Virus record (IMG/VR): IMGVR_UViG_3300020220_000387
Coordinates: 1 to 21,797 of that record
DNA: 21,797 bases
Strand: one strand, 5' to 3'
Source of the DNA: a virus
The notes below the pieces were generated by a model. That model was not told the origin of the DNA, made no database searches, and saw nothing but the letters and a program-made list of their open reading frames with translations. Made by a program: the position numbers and the translations under genes. How positions within the stretch are numbered: position 1 is the first letter of the stretch; each line of letters opens with the position of its first letter. Of this stretch, positions 9,959 to 16,063 are shown in pieces.

Positions 9959-10840
9959 ATGCCTCACAGAGCCATTTCGCAGATTAAAGATACTATCTTA
10001 AAGCCTGCGTTATCTCATCTTTTTCTGGTACAATTTGATATACCGGGAAATATTGACAACCCAGAAAAGGGATTGTTAAATTGGATGTTAAATAAGACAG
10101 AGTTACCAATAGATCCAAGAACTACTGAGATGAAAGATAAACTTCTTTTACTCTGTTCCGAAGCTAATCTTCCTGGATCTTCGTTACTAACTCATGAAAT
10201 TAATAACGATTATACTGGACAAACTGAAAGACATGCGTATCGCAGATCATATGATGATCGAATAGACTTTACTTTTTATGTTGATAGCGATTATCAAATA
10301 TTGCAATTTTTTAATAATTGGATTACTTTTATTTGCAATGATGACATAAGAAAAATTAAAAGACCAACTTACAACACTCGGGTAAGATTTCCAGAAGATT
10401 ACTATACACAATCACTGGAAATTGTAAAGTTTGAAAAAAATAATGGATTGCTAGATTATGCAGGATCATCTCCTGCAACTCCTACTGGAAGGTATAACCC
10501 GCAAGTTGAACCACAAAAAAGTGTTTTATCGCACAGATTTATAAACGCATATCCAATCAATATAAACTCTATTCCAGTTTCATACGATCAACCTTCTCTC
10601 TTAAAATGTACTGTCTCTTTTACATATTCTAGATATTATGTTCAACTAGAGGCTCCTAAAATATCTCAACAACAACCCACTTCTCCACAACAACAAGAAC
10701 AACAAACAGCAGCAGTGAACGCTAATAACGTCTTTTACATTCCACGAGGACAAGCAATTGGAGCTACGCAAAGAGGAACTGTGTTCCTTGTTCCTACTCA
10801 GTTAGGTGGAGCGTTCTCACCACCACTTAATCCTCCATAA
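9959..10840 (+). CDS. 54: gp54-like baseplate tail-tube initiator
   Basis: This 293-residue protein resembles the tail-tube fold group (gp19/gp48/gp54). The clearest block is DDRIDFTFYVDSDYQILQFF followed by NNWITFICN near residues 98-127, the usual 'F.v..D......F..W...I' pattern of tube-like proteins, preceded by LLLLCSEANLPGSSLLTHEI near residue 62. The final 70 residues are Gln-rich and low in complexity (PTSPQQQEQQTAAVNANN). Being the first gene of the rightward tail block, just before the gp26-like gene, it is best explained as gp54, which in T4 sits on the hub and nucleates tube polymerisation. An alternative is a tail-tube paralogue with another name. Confidence 0.65.
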   Translation: MPHRAISQIKDTILKPALSHLFLVQFDIPGNIDNPEKGLLNWMLNKTELPIDPRTTEMKDKLLLLCSEANLPGSSLLTHEINNDYTGQTERHAYRRSYDDRIDFTFYVDSDYQILQFFNNWITFICNDDIRKIKRPTYNTRVRFPEDYYTQSLEIVKFEKNNGLLDYAGSSPATPTGRYNPQVEPQKSVLSHRFINAYPININSIPVSYDQPSLLKCTVSFTYSRYYVQLEAPKISQQQPTSPQQQEQQTAAVNANNVFYIPRGQAIGATQRGTVFLVPTQLGGAFSPPLNPP

Positions 10841-10869: not shown

Positions 10870-11589
10870 ATGCCTTTACCAAAGATTTCTACGCCAACGT
10901 ATGAGTTGGAATTGCCTTCAACTGAAGAAACGATTCAGTATAGACCATTTTTAGTTCGTGAAGAAAAGCTTCTTGTTCTCGCATTGGAATCTGAGAACAT
11001 GAAGGAGATTACAACTGCAATCAAATCGGTTATCAAAAACTGCATTCTTTCAAAAGGAATCAAGATTGAAAGTCTGCCAACGTTTGATATTGAATATCTT
11101 TTCCTTAATATTCGTGGTAAGTCTGTTGGGGAAGAGATTGAAGTTAATGTAATTTGCCCTGATGATGAAGATATTACAGTTCCTGTAACAATTTCTGTAG
11201 ACGATATCAAAGTTGTAAAGAATAAAAATCATTCCAATCGAATCAAAGTAGATGATTCAATCATGATGGAGATGAAGTACCCATCATTGGATCAGTTTAT
11301 TAAAAATAACTTTGATTTCTCTGGTGCAAATCTGATGGATCAATCTTTTGATCTCGTTGCATCATGTATTGACAAGATTTATCAAGGCGATGAAGTTTGG
11401 ACCTCGGCTGATGTGACTAAGAAAGATCTTTTAGATTTTCTTGATCAATTCAATGCAGCACAGTTTCAACAGATTGAAACGTTTTTTGAAACAATGCCTA
11501 AACTGTCACATACGGTTAAGGTCAAGAATCCAAGCAGTGGTGTCGAGAGCGAAGTTGTTCTGGAGGGTTTGTCCAATTTTTTCGCATAG
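10870..11589 (+). CDS. 26: gp26-like baseplate hub/tail assembly chaperone, zero-frame product
   Basis: This 239-residue protein matches the T4-type gp26 baseplate hub family: MPLPKISTPTYELELPSTEE, then IQYRPFLVREEKLLVLALES near residues 23-42 and ITTAIKSVIKNCI near residue 46, followed by a DIEYLFLNIRGKSVGEEI segment and a 'C..D' zinc-free beta strand region. In T4, gp26 is needed to assemble the hub. The 3' end carries a slippery heptamer T TTT TTC (11577-11583), the stop TAG at 11587-11589 and a strong hairpin, so a fraction of ribosomes probably shift to -1 and extend the protein (next entries). The position directly before tape-measure-like genes equals that of the G/GT chaperone pair in lambda-like phages. 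Confidence 0.8.
   Translation: MPLPKISTPTYELELPSTEETIQYRPFLVREEKLLVLALESENMKEITTAIKSVIKNCILSKGIKIESLPTFDIEYLFLNIRGKSVGEEIEVNVICPDDEDITVPVTISVDDIKVVKNKNHSNRIKVDDSIMMEMKYPSLDQFIKNNFDFSGANLMDQSFDLVASCIDKIYQGDEVWTSADVTKKDLLDFLDQFNAAQFQQIETFFETMPKLSHTVKVKNPSSGVESEVVLEGLSNFFA
11577..11583 (+). promoter_or_regulatory. -1 ribosomal frameshift slippery site T TTT TTC
   Basis: In the gp26-like frame the codons read AAT TTT TTC GCA TAG, so the heptamer T TTT TTC fits the X XXY YYZ rule for a -1 slip; both tRNAs re-pair on TTT. The zero frame stops two codons later. The -1 frame is open from here to TGA 11760-11762. A hairpin begins seven bases after the heptamer, the usual distance for a stimulatory structure. 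Confidence 0.75.
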
Positions 11590-11762
11590 GCCTGGTCCAC
11601 ATGGACCTGGAATCTTACTACAAACTTAATTTTTCTTTGATTCAGTACCATAAATATTCATTAACTGAGATAGAAAACATGATGCCCTGGGAAAGGGATA
11701 TCTATGTTGCCTTACTACAACAACACTTAGACGAAGAAAGAGTTAAGCAACAAAATGCGTGA
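11583..11762 (+). CDS. -1 frame extension of gp26 (T-like domain, 59 codons), also a 53-codon ORF from ATG 11601
   Basis: Reading -1 from the slippery site gives RIGLVH then MDLESYYKLNFSLIQYHKYS and a second half with ENMMPWERDIYVALLQQHL, ending at TGA 11760-11762. The fusion with gp26 would be 297 residues (238 plus 59). The 'MPWxERxIYxxLL' helix is of the type seen in the second (T-like) frames of tail assembly chaperones that recruit the tape measure protein. The frame also has its own ATG at 11601, inside the hairpin loop, with no good ribosome binding site. It fills the otherwise empty 165-base gap and overlaps the next gene start by eight bases. Either the fusion, the free 53-residue protein, or both may be made; the fusion is favoured by the signals. 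Confidence 0.75.
   Translation, partial: RIGLVHMDLESYYKLNFSLIQYHKYSLTEIENMMPWERDIYVALLQQHLDEERVKQQNA
11591..11610 (+). promoter_or_regulatory. Stimulatory RNA hairpin for the -1 frameshift
   Basis: CCTGGTCC (11591-11598) pairs with GGACCTGG (11603-11610) around an ACAT loop, giving seven pairs with one T-T mismatch; the inner five (GGTCC/GGACC) are continuous and four of them are G-C. It starts seven bases after the slippery heptamer. Few GC-rich stems exist elsewhere in this AT-rich DNA, so the placement is unlikely to be chance. Confidence 0.7.
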
Positions 11763-13629
11763 CCAATTAGTTACAGAAGCTATTGACGCTAGAATTCTAA
11801 GACTAATTGGTCTTGAGGAAACTTTTGATCTTGACTATGAGACGTATCTTGTCTTATTAAAAGAAGCGCAAGTTAAAGGAAAAAATACTTTACCAGCAGA
11901 AGAACAAGCAATTCTTGCAAACGAAAGAAAGAGAGTAAGAGGAAAGGTCGGTCGATTCAAACCAAAAGCAAAAACAATCAACGTTAATAACATAACGTCC
12001 GTTGGAAGAGTGGGACAAAAACTTTTGCCTGCTGCAAAAGGTGTTGGTTCTGCTCCTATTGTAAAATCTTTAGCGAGTATTGGTGCGATTGTTAATTCAA
12101 TCTCAGAAGATTTGAGTAATCAAAGTAAAGAAGATAAGAAAGAAGCAGAAGAAGATAGAAAAAAAGAAGAGAATAAAAAGAGATCAGAAAGAGAAGAAAG
12201 TTTAGAATCAAAAGCAAAGAAACTATTAGCTTCTGCTAAAAAGTTATTTGCTCCAACTAAAAGTATTTTTGATTCGATTTTTAATTATCTGTATTATACT
12301 TTCCTTGGAAGGGGAGTTACTGAGGCACTGAACTGGTTAGCAGATCCAAAAAATGCAACTAAAGTTGCAGCACTGGGTAAATTTATTAAAGATTTTTGGC
12401 CTGCTTTACTTGGTGCTGCAGGATTATTTTTGACTCCTCTTGGTGGATTTATAGCAAAAACTCTTGGAATAATTAAAGGACTTGCACTTAGATTTCCATT
12501 AATTGCAGCAGCTGCAGGCGTAACTGCTTTAGGTGAACTTGGTACTGAAGCAATGAGAAAAGCGACAGGAAAAGAATATAGATTGACTGGATATGAGGGG
12601 GGTGTACCTGGAGTTGCGCCTGGGCGTGTACCAGATGTAAACGCAAAGAAAAAAACTGCAGAGGAAGTAAAAGAAAATCAAGAGGCACCATATGGAAGGA
12701 ATCCAGATGGAACTCCAAAATTATTTCCAAGTTTATTTGAATCTGGTGGGTTAGTTGATAAGAACACTGGATTAAACATAACTGGAGCAGGGTCCGATAC
12801 ACAATTAACTGCATTGACTCCTGGAGAAATTGTAATGAACCGTGGTGCTGTAAGAGCAATTGGTGCAGGCAATTTGCTCAACTTAAATAAAATGCATGGC
12901 GGTGCTAATGCAAATAAACCAAAATTCACCAATAATATTCAATTAGCTCAGGGTGGTGGTTTAATTGGTGGATTTATGAATTGGTACAATAAAGGCAGAA
13001 ATGTTCGAATTCCACAAGAAAGTCGTGCAAATTGGTTTGATTTGCTGCGTGATGATTTAAAACAAAGAGGTCAAAGTAATTCTAATTTTGCAAAAGGAGC
13101 TAAACCATCGTTATTTGGAAGACCAGATAGGGGAGTCTTTTCAAGAGATTTTCTTGATTGGCACCGTACAAAATCACAAAGAAATCCATTAGGTATTCCA
13201 AGACCAAGATATGTCCCTGCATCCCAAGGTGGAACTGGATCAGCACCAACGCCTGCAGGTCGTCAATTCGTTGAAAGAATACCACAGTATTCTGTGGCTA
13301 TGCAATTAGGAATGTATGTCTACAATATGATGCAACAGAGAAATACCACAGTTAGAGCGCAGCAATATGGATATGGAACTGTTGAAGATATGATGGTTGC
13401 TCCTGAACGTTATCAACAACCTGCACAATTGAGCAGAACAACTCCTAGAACTCCATCATTACCTCCAACTCCAAGATCAAAATCAAGTCTTATTACACTT
13501 CCTCCAGTTGTTCAATCTGCATCAACAGCAGCACCATCAGCATCAGAATCTGAAATTCCTACATTTTCTGCGGTTGCTCCTGCAAATAGAAGAATGGTAA
13601 ATGCAGAAATTTACGGATTGATCCCATAA
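11755..13629 (+). CDS. Tape-measure-like baseplate hub protein (gp29-like)
   Basis: This 624-residue protein looks like a tail length/tape-measure component. It has a basic N-terminal part, a highly charged coiled-coil-type stretch (about residues 120-160, rich in K, E and R), then a hydrophobic region including FDSIFNYLYYTFLG (about 172-185) and Ala/Gly/Leu-rich segments to about residue 270. Next comes a glycine-rich block with FESGGLVDKNTGLNITGAGS and ALTPGEIVMNRGAV near residues 330-365, a motif common in phage tape measure proteins (TPGEFV). The tail end is Pro/Ser/Thr-rich and repetitive. T4 gp29 is 590 residues and lies in the same hub cluster, so gp29 is the likeliest counterpart. It directly follows the chaperone frameshift, as tape-measure genes do. 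Confidence 0.6.
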   Translation: MRDQLVTEAIDARILRLIGLEETFDLDYETYLVLLKEAQVKGKNTLPAEEQAILANERKRVRGKVGRFKPKAKTINVNNITSVGRVGQKLLPAAKGVGSAPIVKSLASIGAIVNSISEDLSNQSKEDKKEAEEDRKKEENKKRSEREESLESKAKKLLASAKKLFAPTKSIFDSIFNYLYYTFLGRGVTEALNWLADPKNATKVAALGKFIKDFWPALLGAAGLFLTPLGGFIAKTLGIIKGLALRFPLIAAAAGVTALGELGTEAMRKATGKEYRLTGYEGGVPGVAPGRVPDVNAKKKTAEEVKENQEAPYGRNPDGTPKLFPSLFESGGLVDKNTGLNITGAGSDTQLTALTPGEIVMNRGAVRAIGAGNLLNLNKMHGGANANKPKFTNNIQLAQGGGLIGGFMNWYNKGRNVRIPQESRANWFDLLRDDLKQRGQSNSNFAKGAKPSLFGRPDRGVFSRDFLDWHRTKSQRNPLGIPRPRYVPASQGGTGSAPTPAGRQFVERIPQYSVAMQLGMYVYNMMQQRNTTVRAQQYGYGTVEDMMVAPERYQQPAQLSRTTPRTPSLPPTPRSKSSLITLPPVVQSASTAAPSASESEIPTFSAVAPANRRMVNAEIYGLIP

Positions 13630-13633
13630 AGAC

Positions 13634-16063
13634 ATGGCAATCAACGCTCAGAAACTTTTACCACCAGCAAAACTTTCTACTTCGGAAAGAATGGCTGCAG
13701 CGTATGATAAAAAGATTGATGATCTCTTGAATTTAAGAATCAAGAAGAAATTAATTAACGTAGAAAAAATCACTAAAACTACTAAGAAAACGAAACAAGA
13801 AACAAGGAAAAAGAAAAAAATACGTGAAGAGAACGAAACAAGAAAGAAGAAGGAGCAGAAGTTAGAAGAGAAAAAACCAGATGAAACTACAAAGATACAA
13901 CTTCCATCTTTACCAAAAACAGGATTACTTGATTCTGTTCAGAACTTTTTAGCATATACCTTCCTTGGATATATGATGACAAATTATTCTGATAAGATGT
14001 CTCCTCTTGCTCAGGTGGTAAAAATACTACCATCAGCATTGGACACGTTTGGAAATATTATCAGGGGGACTGTAGATGTTGCAGGAGGCGTAATTGAAGG
14101 TGGATATAAGTTTGAGGATGATCTTCGTCAAAAAGTAGAAGAACTTGGCGGTAAAGACGCTCAAAAAACATACGATAGTTTTACAAATGGTTTTAAAGAC
14201 ATGATCAATCGGATCATGACTTTAGGAATATATCAACCACCTCCAACTCCACAGAAAGTCAATGGTGGATTGGTTACCAGGATGGCTACAGGTGGTGTCA
14301 CTAGAGCAAATCGTCCTGTAGGTGGACCAGTATCTAGACAGGTACAGACAGTTAAAGCAAAGAAACAACCAGTTGTATTCAGACAAAAAACTGAACCTGG
14401 AAAGGATATTGGTGGCACCAAAAGGATTGAAAGAATATTTCCAAAATCAAAAGATATTCAAAAACCTGGACCATTGAATACCTTAATGACAACTTCATCG
14501 GAGTTGAAAAAGATTCCATTTATTGGATCTTTGATGTCTGCTGCTGTTGATATTGCAATGGGTCAGAAACCTGATAAACGAGTTTATCAGTCATTTGGAG
14601 CAGCAATATCACACTTAGTAGGTCCTACAATTGAAGGGCAATCAAGTGCATCAATTAATAACCTAACAAGTGCCATTATAAAAATGGCTTCTGGTGGTCC
14701 TGTTCCATTAAACAGAAAAATTTCTTCTAATACTTCATCATCGGATAGACTTGCAATTGAAATTGCAAAGATGTTCCAAGTAAGTGTGGAAAATAGATTA
14801 TCTAGAATATTTTCTGAGATCTTAAAAACAAAATCTGCATCTGCGATTGCTGGAGAACAGGAAAATCAATATGGGGATATTGAGTATGGTCCTTTACCTT
14901 TAGGAATGACTGAAAAACAGGCATTCGCAACTATTTACGAACTTGCTAAAAAGAATAATGCAGCAATGCCAGAACTTGTAGCTGGTATGGCAATGCATGA
15001 GGCTGATTATTTGAGAAGTACTTTAGCAAGACAATATAATAATCCTTTTGGACAAACGGGAAATGGACCAAAAGGATCTGTAAAAATAGTAGGACCAGAT
15101 GGAAAAGAAAGGACATTTGCAATTTACAATAACTTAGAAGAAGCTGTTAAATGGCACGTTGATAATTGGAACAATGATTCCAAGTTTGGAAAAGGTTTAG
15201 GAACATATCCAAGTGCTGTTGAGGGACTAAAAGCGGGTCTTCCAACATATGCTCCTACAAGTAACGGAAACAATCATCCAGCTTATATTAGCAGCGTATC
15301 TTCTATATTAACTACGATGGGATTCAATCCACAGAAAAAGAATCCTAAAGTAGATTTAAGTAAACAGCAACTAGTTCAACAAAGGAGAGCATTAAAAGGA
15401 GGAACTATTTCTGGGGATGCTCCACCAAGTGCAGATGTATTGTCGATGAGTGAAACTGTAATTGTAGAGGGATCTTTTAGACTCAGACCTGATGCTGCTC
15501 AAGCATATCTTGCAATGAAGAGGGCTGCTGCATCAGAAGGAACAAGTATTAGTTTAGAATCTGCATGGAGAGACTTTGCAAAACAAAAAAAACTGTATGA
15601 AGCGTATGTTGCAGGAAGAGGAAATTTAGCAGCTGCACCAGGCACTTCAACGCATGAAATGGGTATTGCAATTGATCTCAGAAATGGAATACCTTGGGCA
15701 CAAAAAAATGGATCTCGTTTTGGGTGGATTAACACAGGGATGTCATTTTCTCAAAAAGAACCTTGGCACTTTGACTTTAATGCATCAAAATATCGTCCAG
15801 CAACATCACAAACACGAACTAAAAAAGTAGCAGCGTCTGCAGCTGCAGTTCCTCCTTCCGCTCAAGTTGCAACTGCAAAACCAAAAATTTTAGACGCTGC
15901 AAATCAAGTTGCAATGTTACCATCATACGACCAACCAGAACCAATTCTTTTGCTTCAGGAGAAAATTATATTAAAAGAGTCTGATAGTCAAAATAATCCT
16001 TCTAGTCTATCTAACATCGCATTTCCTGGATTAAATAGTACATCATCAACATTTATCGGATGA
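13634..16063 (+). CDS. Tape-measure-like protein with glucosaminidase-like and VanY-like peptidase domains
   Basis: This 809-residue protein has a Lys/Glu-rich coiled-coil N-terminus (about 45-85), then LLDSVQNFLAYTFLG (about 98-112), which matches the hydrophobic motif in the preceding gene, and Gly-rich GGLVTRMATGG blocks near residue 214. A glucosaminidase-like (GH73-type) region follows at about 420-575, with MAMHEAD (candidate catalytic E456), NNPFGQTGNG and a YNNLEEAVKWHV segment. From about 610 to 720 lies a peptidase M15/VanY-type domain: STHEMGIAID supplies zinc ligands H674 and D681, and EPWHFDF supplies H712 with catalytic E709. The protein probably cuts both glycan and peptide links of cyanobacterial peptidoglycan during DNA injection. 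It starts four bases after the previous gene and overlaps the next by four. Confidence 0.78.
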   Translation: MAINAQKLLPPAKLSTSERMAAAYDKKIDDLLNLRIKKKLINVEKITKTTKKTKQETRKKKKIREENETRKKKEQKLEEKKPDETTKIQLPSLPKTGLLDSVQNFLAYTFLGYMMTNYSDKMSPLAQVVKILPSALDTFGNIIRGTVDVAGGVIEGGYKFEDDLRQKVEELGGKDAQKTYDSFTNGFKDMINRIMTLGIYQPPPTPQKVNGGLVTRMATGGVTRANRPVGGPVSRQVQTVKAKKQPVVFRQKTEPGKDIGGTKRIERIFPKSKDIQKPGPLNTLMTTSSELKKIPFIGSLMSAAVDIAMGQKPDKRVYQSFGAAISHLVGPTIEGQSSASINNLTSAIIKMASGGPVPLNRKISSNTSSSDRLAIEIAKMFQVSVENRLSRIFSEILKTKSASAIAGEQENQYGDIEYGPLPLGMTEKQAFATIYELAKKNNAAMPELVAGMAMHEADYLRSTLARQYNNPFGQTGNGPKGSVKIVGPDGKERTFAIYNNLEEAVKWHVDNWNNDSKFGKGLGTYPSAVEGLKAGLPTYAPTSNGNNHPAYISSVSSILTTMGFNPQKKNPKVDLSKQQLVQQRRALKGGTISGDAPPSADVLSMSETVIVEGSFRLRPDAAQAYLAMKRAAASEGTSISLESAWRDFAKQKKLYEAYVAGRGNLAAAPGTSTHEMGIAIDLRNGIPWAQKNGSRFGWINTGMSFSQKEPWHFDFNASKYRPATSQTRTKKVAASAAAVPPSAQVATAKPKILDAANQVAMLPSYDQPEPILLLQEKIILKESDSQNNPSSLSNIAFPGLNSTSSTFIG

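Follow-up and report, generated by a model that had tools for sequence, protein, structure and literature searches.

The gp26-like gene of a T4-like cyanophage ends at a stop codon that is bridged by an open reading frame in the -1 register, which raises the question whether this locus holds a tail-assembly gene followed by a small separate gene or a single gene read in two ways. The DNA analyzed here, referred to as the window, is a 21.8-kb fragment constituting an IMG/VR virus record (21,797 nt), and its gp26-gp51 region shares about 65–75% DNA identity with Synechococcus and Prochlorococcus myoviruses in nucleotide comparison. The evidence described below argues that the locus very probably encodes a tail-assembly chaperone in two lengths from one gene via a -1 frameshift.

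Anatomy of the gp26 gene end

The zero-frame gene was assigned by matches of its product to PF12322 (E 1.4e-73; 247.7 bits compared to a cut-off of 24.5) and phrog_150 (E 1e-78), and homologues of this product are named 'gp26 baseplate hub' in relatives. The gene sits between a tube-like gene at 9959–10840 (phrog_45, Phage_TTP_2) and a tape-measure-like gene, whose product is a possible client of the chaperone. The latter product carries two cell-wall-degrading domains, Glucosaminidase and VanY peptidase, in one tail protein. The features of the locus are as follows:

10870–11589, + strand: zero-frame gene, short tail-assembly chaperone (TAC-N), 239 aa
11562–11567, + strand: GGAGGG, Shine-Dalgarno-like, 9 nt before the heptamer, tentative stimulator, noted from sequence
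11577–11583, + strand: slippery heptamer T TTT TTC, candidate -1 frameshift site (F238), from sequence and conservation in relatives
11583–11762, + strand: -1 extension of 59 codons plus TGA (11760–11762), C-terminal domain of the long form, by matches to phrog_634 and the C-terminus of phrog_150
11584–11590, + strand: spacer of 7 nt containing the zero-frame TAG (11587–11589), from sequence
11591–11610, + strand: candidate stimulatory hairpin of 7 pairs with one U.U mismatch and the loop ACAT, from folding and comparative pairing
11755–13629, + strand: next gene, 624 aa, tail region, no assigned role (phrog_35029)
13634–16063, + strand: tape-measure-like gene, 809 aa, Glucosaminidase and VanY domains, from profile matches

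In the zero frame the gp26 gene ends with ..GAG GGT TTG TCC AAT TTT TTC GCA TAG. The heptamer T TTT TTC matches the X XXY YYZ phase for -1 slippage, and the TAG is the second zero-frame codon past it. After the slip the -1 frame reads RIGLVHMDLESYYKLNFSLIQYHKYSLTEIENMMPWERDIYVALLQQHLDEERVKQQNA, ending at 11760–11762 and overlapping by 8 nt with the 624-aa gene, which starts at ATG 11755. The resulting fusion (TAC-NC) would consist of residues 1–238 of the zero frame and the -1 extension, 297 aa in all. Every element that a preliminary description of the sequence had listed, namely the heptamer, its in-phase position, the TAG two codons on, the 7-nt spacer and the seven-pair hairpin, is present, and the -1 frame is indeed open for 59 codons and ends inside the start of the next gene.

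We counted 44 in-phase X XXY YYZ heptamers among the genes of the window. Only two of them, T TTT TTC and a GGGTTTG four codons before it, are located at most 10 codons from a stop or give access to a -1 frame exceeding 45 codons. Judging from the codon usage of the window alone, Asn-Phe-Phe is coded as T TTT TT[TC] at a frequency of 0.54. Since this tripeptide yields such a heptamer about half of the time, its presence in a single sequence is weak evidence, and it is conservation that decides.

Conservation of the heptamer and the -1 frame

We therefore rely on related loci, obtained by querying IMG/VR with six different gp26 sequences and by drawing on annotated records of phages. Among the 332 loci outside the Ackermannviridae with a readable gp26 boundary, 331 carry an in-phase T TTT TT[C/T/A] where gp26 ends, followed by the C-terminal domain in an open -1 frame; the sole exception, L178, has a disrupted gp26 frame. 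Conservation of the heptamer, which the preliminary description had predicted, is thus seen in all relatives of this set with an intact frame. When gp26 was clustered at 90% identity the heptamer was found in 128 of 128 clusters (107 TTTTTTC, 20 TTTTTTT and 1 TTTTTTA), and at 50% identity in 30 of 30. As the sequences are related we give no p-value for this conservation. The heptamer is present in S-PM2, P-SSM2, Pelagibacter phage HTVC008M, Sinorhizobium phage phiM19 and Pseudomonas phage pf16, as well as in Stenotrophomonas phage YB07, Vibrio phages nt-1 and V05, Aeromonas phage CC2 and Pseudoalteromonas phage XG4, and it is kept down to 24–33% gp26 identity (Vibrio nt-1, Aeromonas CC2, pf16). 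The base preceding Phe-Phe is T in every cluster while the amino acid at this position varies between Ser, Asn, Asp, Ala, His, Thr and Arg. Of 138 Phe-Phe pairs at other positions of these genes, only 4 are written T TTT TT[CT].

The domain encoded in the -1 frame matches phrog_634 'baseplate hub assembly catalyst' (E 1.3e-27) and the C-terminus of phrog_150 (E 1.6e-6). Its ATG-initiated part, 11601–11762 with 53 codons, corresponds to the 'gp51' ORF of relatives, and it might accordingly be read as an independent small gene expressed by reinitiation or translational coupling at ATG 11601, with the heptamer being incidental. This ATG lies 11 nt past the TAG, a distance permitting some reinitiation of a 53-aa product; in many close relatives an ATG follows 2–6 codons after the shift point, and many records annotate the frame as a gene of its own. 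The -1 extensions themselves speak against such a gene. All 323 complete ones span 56–73 codons, 164 of them are without ATG within the first 12 codons, and 123 of the 323 have neither ATG, GTG nor TTG there; in these 123 relatives the domain is not an independent gene, since the first codons of the -1 frame offer no start. Moreover, the stretch of residues from the shift point up to the customary ATG position is conserved in the alignment (R-I-x-L-x-H-x-x-L), the heptamer is invariant at synonymous positions, no clear Shine-Dalgarno sequence precedes ATG 11601, and the C-terminal domain is fused in T4 and 44RR. We rejected the independent gene because many relatives keep the heptamer without any start codon near the -1 frame, and regard it as very unlikely. 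The case named beforehand as speaking against frameshifting, loss of the heptamer with retention of the short frame and its own start, was seen in no relative outside the Ackermannviridae; the reverse was found in many.

The fused frame could also arise by transcriptional rather than ribosomal slippage, as a run of six T, or seven in the TTTTTTT variants, could make RNA polymerase slip, and every relative with the heptamer has at least six T in the run. However, six T are short for efficient slipping. The phase is fixed and the C of TTTTTTC is kept in 107 of 128 clusters, which suits tandem slippage of tRNA-Phe, and the hairpins that follow shortly downstream speak for the ribosome. Slippage of the polymerase appears slightly less probable still than a separate gene. 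Decay or a sequencing error, in which a once-fused gene was split by an indel, would agree with the two parts being fused in gp51 of T4-type phages, but was rejected as practically negligible, being contradicted by the same phase and heptamer at 331 loci, finished isolate genomes included, and by protein constraint on both frames.

Candidate stimulatory elements

In the window the candidate hairpin CC.GGTCC/ACAT/GGACC.GG follows the spacer, with ATG 11601 located inside the stem-loop. A 45-nt window at this position folds with an MFE of -11.3 and a z of -2.0. We surveyed folding across relatives with 45-nt windows in 82 clusters at 80% identity. The mean MFE reached its minimum immediately after the heptamer (-8.4 at offset 0) compared to a coding background of -5.1 ± 0.6, and the mean z was -1.9 as against -0.3 in control windows. 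In the window's own clade (45 distinct sequences) 81.9% of cells in the hairpin are paired, more than in all 500 shuffles and all slid versions. Three pairs are changed on both sides, a count no higher than in the shuffles, so that support for this hairpin is good but not overwhelming.

Strong stems occur in several clades: that of the window, S-PM2-like phages with a long stem, P-SSM2-like phages with a stem of different sequence, and a GCCTC-type. In a good fraction of the lineages among the 82 clusters the hairpin is weak or absent, and we rejected it as a universal element; among lambda G/GT-type chaperones, too, a stimulatory structure downstream is not found in every member. The expectation of a hairpin conserved with covarying stem bases is thus borne out as to pairing in the clade of the window, while other lineages carry other stems or none.

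In the clade comprising L208, L210, L223, L235 and L238 and their relatives the zero-frame stop is located 24 nt past the heptamer, within a GCCTCT...AGAGGC stem. Its -1 frame likewise begins without a start codon nearby.

The GGAGGG upstream of the heptamer was absent from the preliminary description. It also occurs in S-PM2 and P-SSM2, yet only some of the clusters have it, and conserved Leu-Glu-Gly codons partly account for it. The dnaX frameshift is stimulated by a similar Shine-Dalgarno-like motif upstream of its site. Going by sequence, GGAGGG may tentatively be considered a possible dnaX-like stimulator.

Two genes in T4 and two proposed products here

The two products proposed for the window have counterparts in T4 and 44RR. 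In both phages gp51 is a single ORF composed of PF12322 and the C-terminal domain, and gp26 carries PF12322 alone. Phrog_634 matches the window extension and T4/44RR gp51 alike, and a profile of the -1 extensions matches 44RR gp51 at 1.4e-7 and T4 gp51 at 1e-3. The window extension aligns with the C-terminus of T4 and 44RR gp51. In this alignment T4 gp26 stops a few residues past the shift point (..GLKEFFELL), and from there on T4 gp51 runs parallel to the -1 frame. Two copies of PF12322 were counted in T4 and in 44RR and one copy in 16 of 16 others, numbers that refer to related whole genomes, the window itself being a fragment. ORF domain content, alignment and copy counts together show that the short and long shift products correspond to T4 gp26 and gp51, respectively. 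The two-gene solution of T4, with the short TAC-N and the long TAC-NC, was reported by Vladimirov et al. 2022, as far as that study is cited in later papers. T4 and 44RR use two separate genes without a shift site, in contrast to the one gene that would here supply both forms by frameshifting. A vestigial shift site was sought in T4 gene 26 and not found: its Phe-Phe is written G TTC TTT (GAG TTC TTT GAG), and the gene has no -1 extension.

A role as chaperone, proposed before, fits this homology, as T4 gp26 and gp51 are both listed as hub assembly chaperones; gp51 is essential and its function was given as unknown in a 2010 review (PMC3004832). An AlphaFold model of the short form reached a pLDDT of 92. 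The highest probability listed for this model, 0.75, was obtained with the HK97 tail-assembly chaperone 2ob9_B (rmsd 2.7 over 62 columns), a match that is not significant at an E of 1.1. A sequence search against solved structures gave nothing significant.

Given the conserved heptamer, the missing -1 starts and the two-gene counterpart in T4 and 44RR, we assign the product to tail-assembly chaperones of the lambda G/GT type. Lambda gpG/gpGT and P2 E/E' make a short product and a rarer -1 fusion with a heptamer near the zero-frame stop, ahead of the tape-measure genes, as is proposed here. The lambda heptamer is G GGA AAG instead of T TTT TTC, and P2 likewise has a T-run shift site. The window differs in that no sequence similarity is shown, the N-terminal domain is PF12322 and the phage is contractile and T4-like.

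We propose that most ribosomes would read the zero frame to the TAG and release the 239-aa short form. A minority would move one base back on T TTT TTC, tRNA-Phe re-pairing from TTT in the P-site and TTC in the A-site to TTT TTT, and would add 59 codons to yield the 297-aa long form, so that shift efficiency would set the ratio of short to long. In the clade of the window the hairpin, which lies 7 nt downstream, may aid the slip, and GGAGGG ahead of the site could perhaps contribute. Following lambda (PMC5009743), the shared N-terminal part might coat the tape-measure protein with many short and few long copies, and the C-terminal domain might recruit tail tube or hub subunits. What the sequences show is the anatomy, the phase, the conservation, the homology to T4 gp26 and gp51 and the copy numbers; slippage itself, its rate and the contacts of the chaperone are inferred.

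A 2016 review described the G-T frameshift as conserved among long-tailed phages 'except T4' (PMC5009743). Vladimirov et al. 2022 is cited in the PRFect paper (PMC10885494) for some T4-like phages that pair a short gene with a longer, fused one, and in the phage Adele paper (PMC12846349) for poly-T signals that direct frameshifting in T4-like TAC-N genes. Since both papers cite that study for them, the essentials have probably been published, which weakens the novelty suggested earlier, when no description of such a shift in T4-like cyanophage gp26 was known. In Vandenendeviridae and Andersonviridae (phage Adele, PMC12846349) TAC-N ends in a conserved poly-T signal for a -1 shift, and the C-terminal ORF had been misannotated as a separate gene, both as here, although these families differ from that of the window phage and have a GTTTTT motif. 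The present survey adds how widespread and nearly invariant the arrangement is among uncultured cyanophages, how often start codons are missing, the contrast in copy number and the exception in Ackermannviridae. The two-product logic of tail chaperones would thereby reach a group of marine phages that is very abundant.

In Ackermannviridae (Det7, 3M and 15 IMG/VR loci) the C-terminal domain also occupies a -1 frame that runs uninterrupted past the stop, but these gp26 homologues lack an X XXY YYZ heptamer there and end with G/A ATT TTC ATT TAA or G GTT TTC ATC TGA. Such ends are located at:

L083, 2760–2950: gp26 end, C-terminal domain located in -1
L095, 2460–2660: the same arrangement
L269–L283: the same arrangement

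At these loci the downstream start region shows no clear ribosome-binding site. One chaperone family may thus have arrived at its two lengths in three ways: by -1 slippage on T TTT TT[C/T/A] (cyanophages, Pelagibacter, Vibrio, Sinorhizobium, pf16 and others), by two genes that have lost the slippery codons (T4, 44RR), and by a third way in Ackermannviridae, maybe a non-canonical ribosomal shift, a scheme that we put forward with some reserve. The first two types offer a clean natural comparison of frameshifting and separate genes inside one protein family.

These results indicate that what many cyanophage genomes list as 'gp51, baseplate hub assembly catalyst' is the end of gp26 that is reached by frameshifting, and annotations and proteomic search databases should therefore carry the fusion. 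In S-PM2, P-SSM2 and other records the 'gp26' and 'gp51' annotations cover the same locus with the same heptamer as here, deposited as two independent genes, and no joined CDS was present in the records examined. The -1 frame had been expected to be left blank in annotations; this applies to some relatives, and in others it is annotated as 'gp51'.

Annotation of cyanophages and in PHROG uses the names gp26 and gp51 in a way that confuses two T4 proteins homologous to each other. The cyanophage 'gp51' covers the C-terminal domain of T4 gp51 only.
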